Shown piece after piece: positions 58,765 through 59,354 of a stretch of 64,000 nucleotides of DNA. The number at the start of each line of letters is the position of its first letter. Position 1 is the first letter of the stretch. The position numbers and the translations under genes are program-made. The stretch is from assembly GCA_013112685.1 (NCBI GenBank), contig JABFGC010000002.1, forward strand, positions 568,902-632,901, read 5' to 3'. Origin of the DNA: Chloroflexota bacterium (GTDB lineage: Bacteria > Chloroflexota > Anaerolineae > Anaerolineales > Villigracilaceae). The notes under the pieces are model-generated. The model saw nothing but the letters and a program-made list of their open reading frames with translations, ran no database searches and was not told where the DNA came from.

Positions 58765-59305
58765 ATGAAACCCCGCTTCATTTTCTGGACCTTCAGCCTG
58801 GTCGCTGTTATTCTGACGGCTTCCTGCGCCCCCCGCCCGCGCGACGGAGCCGCCCGCCGCCGCGACCACCATTCCTGTGGAGCAATCCACTGCGACGGCG
58901 GCGCCAACTCTCCTGGCAGAATCAACTCCCGCCGTCGTCACCGATGCGCCCACAATCCAGGCAATCGCCACCTCCCGTGGACCAAGCCTCGAAGCCACCG
59001 ATCCCACCACCGTTTCGCTGGCATCCGGTCAACTGCAACTGGTGGAGTTCTTCCGCTTCACCTGAGGCACCTGCCGTTCCATGGCGTCCATGGTTCATGG
59101 GCTCGAAGCGGAGTATTTTGGCAGAGTCAGGTTTACCTATCTCGATGCCGACGATCCCCAAACGCAAGTTTTTCAGCGCGAACTGGGCTTTAACTACCAG
59201 CCGGAATTCTATCTGCTCGATGCAAACGGAAACGTCCTCAAGAAACTGATTGGCTTTGTTTCCGAGGAAGAGTTCCGAAGTCTGTTTGACCAATACCTTC
59301 AATAA
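58765..59305 (+). CDS. Thioredoxin-like lipoprotein with in-frame TGA at the redox motif (candidate selenoprotein)
   Basis: About 180 residues. A lipoprotein signal (FSLVAVILTASCAP) is followed, after removal of one extra C in the six-C run 58829-58834, by a Thr/Ala-rich linker. The thioredoxin domain follows (LQLVEFFRFT, HGLEAEYFGRVRF, YLDADDPQTQVF, cis-Pro region YQPEFYLLDANG). The codon where the first cysteine of CxxC is expected is TGA (59063-59065), followed by GGC ACC TGC, giving xGTC. The same frame continues to a normal stop at 59305. Either the TGA encodes selenocysteine (U-G-T-C) or it is a nonsense change or base error. A stem CCATGG-CGT-CCATGG (59079-59093) lies just downstream. 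Exported, membrane-anchored thiol/selenol oxidoreductase. Confidence 0.65.
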
Positions 59306-59322
59306 CGAAACGCTTCAATATC

Positions 59323-59354
59323 GAAAACGACCCGCCGAAAGGCGGGTCGTTTTC
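59323..59354 (+). terminator. Intrinsic terminator after the thioredoxin-like gene
   Basis: GAAAACGACCCGCC / GGCGGGTCGTTTTC perfect 14-bp stem with a GAAA tetraloop, 18 bases past the stop codon. The A/T flanks would let it act on either strand. Confidence 0.85.

Follow-up and report, generated by a model that had tools for sequence, protein, structure and literature searches.

A conserved in-frame UGA predicts a lipid-anchored UxxC thioredoxin selenoprotein in uncultured Anaerolineales

A gene in a 64,000-nt stretch of DNA of a Chloroflexota bacterium (contig JABFGC010000002.1, positions 568,902 to 632,901; hereafter "the window") very probably encodes an oxidoreductase with a thioredoxin fold and a UxxC motif, predicted to be exported and lipid-anchored, in which an in-frame UGA would be decoded as selenocysteine (Sec) via SelA, SelD, SelB and a SECIS hairpin at 59086-59102. 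That the UGA is read as Sec is almost certain: some 95 related genomes have retained this stop codon at the same site, along with a folded RNA signal and the genes for making Sec. The gene has the following parts (positions of the window):

58765-59305, + strand: predicted selenoprotein gene, with a putative lipoprotein signal, a low-complexity linker and a UxxC thioredoxin domain
58765-58827, + strand: putative signal peptide MKPRFIFWTFSLVAVILTAS-C, with the predicted lipobox Cys at 58825-58827
59063-59065, + strand: in-frame TGA (UGA), the predicted Sec codon, in place of the N-terminal redox Cys of CxxC
59072-59074, + strand: TGC, the invariant resolving Cys of the UxxC motif
59303-59305, + strand: TAA, the true stop codon, in the same frame as EFFRFT-*-GTC

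As claimed in the preliminary description of the window, the TGA stands in frame between EFFRFT and GTC, and the frame is open to the TAA. The window's list of open reading frames splits the gene into 62 aa before the UGA and 74 aa after it. Standard gene calling yields proteins that end at the UGA or begin after it, so that the thioredoxin domain is easily lost. The putative lipoprotein N-terminus, MKPRFIFWTFSLVAVILTASC, begins at 58765 and is out of frame with the thioredoxin domain. A comparison of the window with the nearest homologue places the cause in a run rich in C at about 58833-58843, where the frame is shifted by a net +1. The shift is probably a sequencing or assembly indel error, and the earlier remark that the window contains such errors thus holds within the selenoprotein gene itself. 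With a loose pattern, a lipobox-like motif was found within the first 60 aa in 119 of 131 homologues.

These errors are relevant to one alternative explanation, namely an ordinary CxxC thioredoxin whose TGC was turned into TGA by faulty base calling or assembly: the window has indel errors, one of them in this very gene, and selB is split in the same genome. The preliminary description had named such a TGC-to-TGA change as the alternative, and had proposed an alignment of homologues to see whether they carry Cys at this position. The Cys version of the thioredoxin lipoprotein served as query against 152 genomes from the taxonomic family to which the window's bacterium belongs. Each of the 95 strong homologues (>100 bits over the domain) has a single in-frame TGA, and when 131 homologous places were read base by base, the TGA stood in place of the first CxxC cysteine in all 131. 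These places include contigs titled as Anaerolineales, Villigracilaceae and Chloroflexi MAGs, some MAGs entering twice, from two collections; they comprise 83 distinct 54-base versions. The amino-acid identity to the window protein drops to about 47% among the homologues, while two residues never vary, namely the resolving Cys and the QP-loop Pro (by analogy the cis-Pro). Cys was found at the first position of UxxC in none of the 131 places, and Cys orthologues would not have escaped the search, because the query carried Cys. With the same TGA in many independent assemblies and no Cys orthologue found, the error explanation is refuted at this codon and can be considered extremely improbable; as judged from the aligned genomes, the TGA at 59063-59065 is real. 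Within the family searched, the lipoprotein is by the same comparison a predicted Sec-only protein, and it is apparently Sec-fixed in Anaerolineales.

The UGA could also be read without selenium, either because the code is reassigned (UGA = Cys or Trp) or by leaky readthrough with a near-cognate tRNA. Readthrough alone would also conserve the downstream frame, and coding constraint does continue past the TGA, because more than half of the differences fall on third codon positions, both downstream (52%) and upstream (58%). However, of the 42 open stretches in the window that span at least 300 codons, TGA terminates 18, and it is the final stop codon in 29 of the 131 homologous thioredoxin genes, showing that the genetic code is unchanged. 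In addition, the UGA sits at the position of the catalytic Cys, and sel genes are present. Together with the hairpin described below, this makes decoding without selenium very unlikely. A further alternative is a programmed stop, with a truncated main product and full-length protein only when selenium allows. Sec UGA codons are generally known to compete with termination in bacterial selenoproteins, but the truncated product would here consist of signal and linker, devoid of the thioredoxin domain, and nothing suggests a separate function for it, so that we regard this alternative as hardly credible. Decoding of the UGA as Sec is therefore preferred to all three.

Two hairpins that overlap and exclude each other are located downstream of the UGA:

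59079-59093, + strand: hairpin CCATGG-CGT-CCATGG named in the preliminary description (arms 59079-59084 and 59088-59093), not conserved or covarying
59086-59102, + strand: predicted SECIS hairpin of bacterial type, in which 59086-59091 pairs with 59097-59102 around the apical loop GGUUC (59092-59096)

The former is present as described, its loop lying some 20 nt downstream of the TGA, but is probably not the SECIS. The fraction of paired cells does not differ from that in shuffles (88.0% versus 88.2%), there is no excess of double changes, and its energy of −6.5 kcal/mol falls short of the limit of −7.5 kcal/mol for bacterial SECIS elements (bSECIS). The comparative data instead point to the next hairpin, at 59086-59102, as the predicted SECIS. 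Among the 83 sequences, 99.0% of its cells are paired, compared with 95.1% in shuffles, and the covariation score is 0.188 versus 0.111. Compensatory changes, on both sides of a pair, occur in four of six pairs. Double-change cells number 22 versus 2.7 in shuffles, counts that are not all independent: when the changes are placed on a tree, each base pair has no more than four independent pairs with good support. None of these is discordant, and they are too few for a sign test. The pairing signal is lost when the partner arm is slid. The pairs link changes at first codon positions to changes at third codon positions, i.e. Ser/Pro with Gly GGA/GGG, CCC/CCT with Gly/Arg, and Met/Val with His CAT/CAC, and the family thus represents a clean, alignable case of SECIS pairs that constrain amino-acid and codon choice together.

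The published bSECIS constraints (PMC13188914, Fig. 2) comprise a loop of 3-9 nt with an early G, an upper stem of 4-16 bp, a distance of 16-37 nt from the UGA to the apical loop, and a free energy of −7.5 kcal/mol or lower. The candidate lies within all of these ranges. Its loop is G-G-U-U-C, with N1 = G paired with N2 = C, and C-GUG-C variants of the loop also carry G as the second base. The stem has 6-7 bp, since in the window the candidate folds as 7 bp with a GUU loop, and the distance from the UGA is 26 nt to GGUUC and 27 nt to GUU. The energy of the hairpin alone is −8.6 kcal/mol in the window and ranges from −9.2 to −11.3 kcal/mol in five relatives. The single-sequence fold of 59058-59115 was uninformative (z 0.26), and an Rfam scan of 2 kb around the TGA site yielded nothing credible.

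Thioredoxin-like relatives from further afield in the phylum served as a control beyond the family, and the same five pairs were scored in them at an unchanged offset. All five pairs are formed in 28 of 37 TGA-bearing sequences versus 3 of 48 that carry TGC or TGT instead (Fisher p 1.5e-11, without correction for phylogeny). A covarying SECIS-like hairpin hence accompanies the TGA and mostly not Cys, which further argues against decoding without selenium.

Several groups of more distant sequences deserve mention in their own right. Three Cys (TGC) homologues from the same class and family f5 (L211, L212 and L217, in genomes G292, G398 and G438) carry, at an unchanged offset, a hairpin that resembles a SECIS (CCGGC-TGTGA-GCCGG, CCGCT-CGTGC-AGCGG). 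These may be fossil SECIS elements or chance products of codon usage, and recoding of a sense codon is less likely. TGA-bearing thioredoxin paralogues of the FIDFYADWUSACRSMQP type (L155, L156, L267 and L268) are devoid of the hairpin at the usual offset; in L155 and L156, inspection by eye revealed GCAGCC-GGT-GGTTGC a few bases upstream of that offset, which may be a SECIS in a shifted register. Further UxxC thioredoxin-like groups with TGA (L157-L160 and L258-L281), with about 26-35% identity, are found in genomes of the same family, suggesting that some of these bacteria carry several Sec proteins with a thioredoxin fold.

The preliminary description had suggested a search of the same genome for the Sec-decoding genes. 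The assembly consists of two contigs with a total of 4.6 Mb and is 78% complete. It contains an intact selA (544 bits), selB in two abutting pieces of 171 and 154 bits (L003 and L004; G000:C2:1971690-1973574, where G000 is the window's genome), and selD (364 bits; L010, G000:C2:2480921-2481850). The split of selB is probably a frameshift caused by an indel error of the assembly. The selD gene has its own in-frame TGA near the N-terminus (LSACAG*ASKL), so that SelD itself is a likely selenoprotein. In the family, selA scores above the cutoff in 141 of 152 genomes, and its co-occurrence with the thioredoxin lipoprotein gene is therefore not discriminating. It follows that selA, and hence probably the Sec trait, is near-universal in a family of uncultured Chloroflexota.

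The tRNA-Sec(UCA) was present in all 10 well-assembled relatives tried first and in three of four further relatives, including the nearest relative, G137, i.e. in 13 of 14 in total; it was not found in G103, which is 85% complete. In the window's assembly, tRNA-Sec was found neither with the Rfam model (150 candidates scored, best matches tRNA-Ser and tRNA-Leu) nor with a purpose-built covariance model (150 candidates scored), a pattern search for anticodon and T-arm, or a search with the DNA of a relative. ARAGORN did not find it within 80 kb around selA, selB and selD. A collection of plasmids yielded no match. The preliminary description would have given up the Sec reading for a complete genome lacking selA/selB/selC. 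Formally, half of this applies: the assembly lacks the tRNA-Sec, but with it the entire chromosomal neighbourhood of that gene. The 3 kb around the tRNA-Sec gene of G137, including a tRNA-Pro(GGG), have no unique counterpart in the window's assembly, the only matches being a dispersed repeat and, at 74%, a cross-match between the tRNA-Pro of this segment and a different site. Because the surrounding 3 kb and the neighbouring tRNA-Pro are also missing, an assembly gap is likelier than a loss of tRNA-Sec, and a missing segment would be the simplest reading of its absence, albeit short of proof. The Sec reading put forward at the outset is thus strongly supported by the conservation of the TGA, by selA, selB and selD in the same genome, and by tRNA-Sec(UCA) in the relatives. 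The dispersed repeat, which adjoins tRNA-Sec in G137 (L181:1690-1856), is about 166 bp long and occurs in at least 12 places in the window's genome (about 70-78% alike).

With the TGA read as Cys, the protein matches the Pfam thioredoxin family PF00085 with an E-value of 8.7e-9 and 35.8 bits, versus a gathering cutoff of 23.5. The AlphaFold prediction, for which 29 relatives were used, has a mean pLDDT of 94.2, and the best Foldseek matches of this predicted structure in the PDB are thioredoxins (TM about 0.8). On the window protein, all NCBIfam models stay below their cutoffs; the canonical thioredoxin TrxA (TIGR01068), for example, scores 33.5 bits versus a cutoff of 96.8.

Thioredoxin selenoproteins with UxxC (PF00085) are established; they are listed in a review (PMC13188914) and were found in the GOS metagenomes (PMC2398784). 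The window protein shares with them the thioredoxin fold, the predicted Sec at the N-terminal redox Cys and the SECIS candidate just downstream within the coding region. In contrast, it has a predicted lipoprotein signal and a long linker, lacks the WCGPC motif, is far under the NCBIfam thioredoxin cutoff, and no Cys orthologue was found. A thioredoxin fold, here in a putatively exported protein, is also shared with the TlpA-/DsbE-type thiol:disulfide interchange thioredoxins, and weak DsbE matches occur in 29 of 29 members, whereas the window protein scores far below the family cutoffs and Sec would replace Cys. Three families combine a thioredoxin-like fold with Sec, namely SaoT (NF040730), TsoB (NF045694) and the HUIPC-motif family (NF047660). 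For SaoT and TsoB, only two to three of the 29 members match, with best E-values of 3e-4 to 3e-3, and NF047660 is absent from the NCBIfam matches; the window protein does not belong to any of these families.

In the open-access literature we found no description of this thioredoxin lipoprotein family and no paper clearly on selenoproteins of Anaerolineae, and the family possibly deserves a name of its own. It seems reasonable, with moderate confidence, to regard it as a distinct selenoprotein family, a lipid-anchored UxxC thioredoxin that is Sec-fixed (no Cys orthologue found) across much of an Anaerolineales family, which would suggest an exported redox step that Cys cannot readily serve. According to the proposed mechanism, SelD would supply selenophosphate and SelA would make Sec-tRNA-Sec, which SelB, bound to the hairpin at 59086-59102, would deliver to the UGA at 59063-59065. 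Sec would be the attacking N-terminal active-site residue of the lipoprotein. Fold and motif suggest that its function is disulfide or related reduction, the substrates being disulfides or oxidised partners outside the cytoplasm. This raises the question of which exported reaction needs selenium in these Chloroflexota.

No redox operon partner is evident near the gene. It is flanked by an aldehyde-dehydrogenase-like gene and, on the other side, by a membrane-protein gene followed by an MFS-like gene (all named by eye). Among 47 related contigs, 35 also have the aldehyde-dehydrogenase-like neighbour and 30 the MFS-like one. Inspection by eye further revealed one structure just past the stop codon:

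59323-59354, + strand: 14-bp perfect hairpin GAAAACGACCCGCC-GAAA-GGCGGGTCGTTTTC

It is absent from the output of a terminator scan, probably owing to the position of the T run within the stem. The hairpin probably is a terminator that serves both directions.
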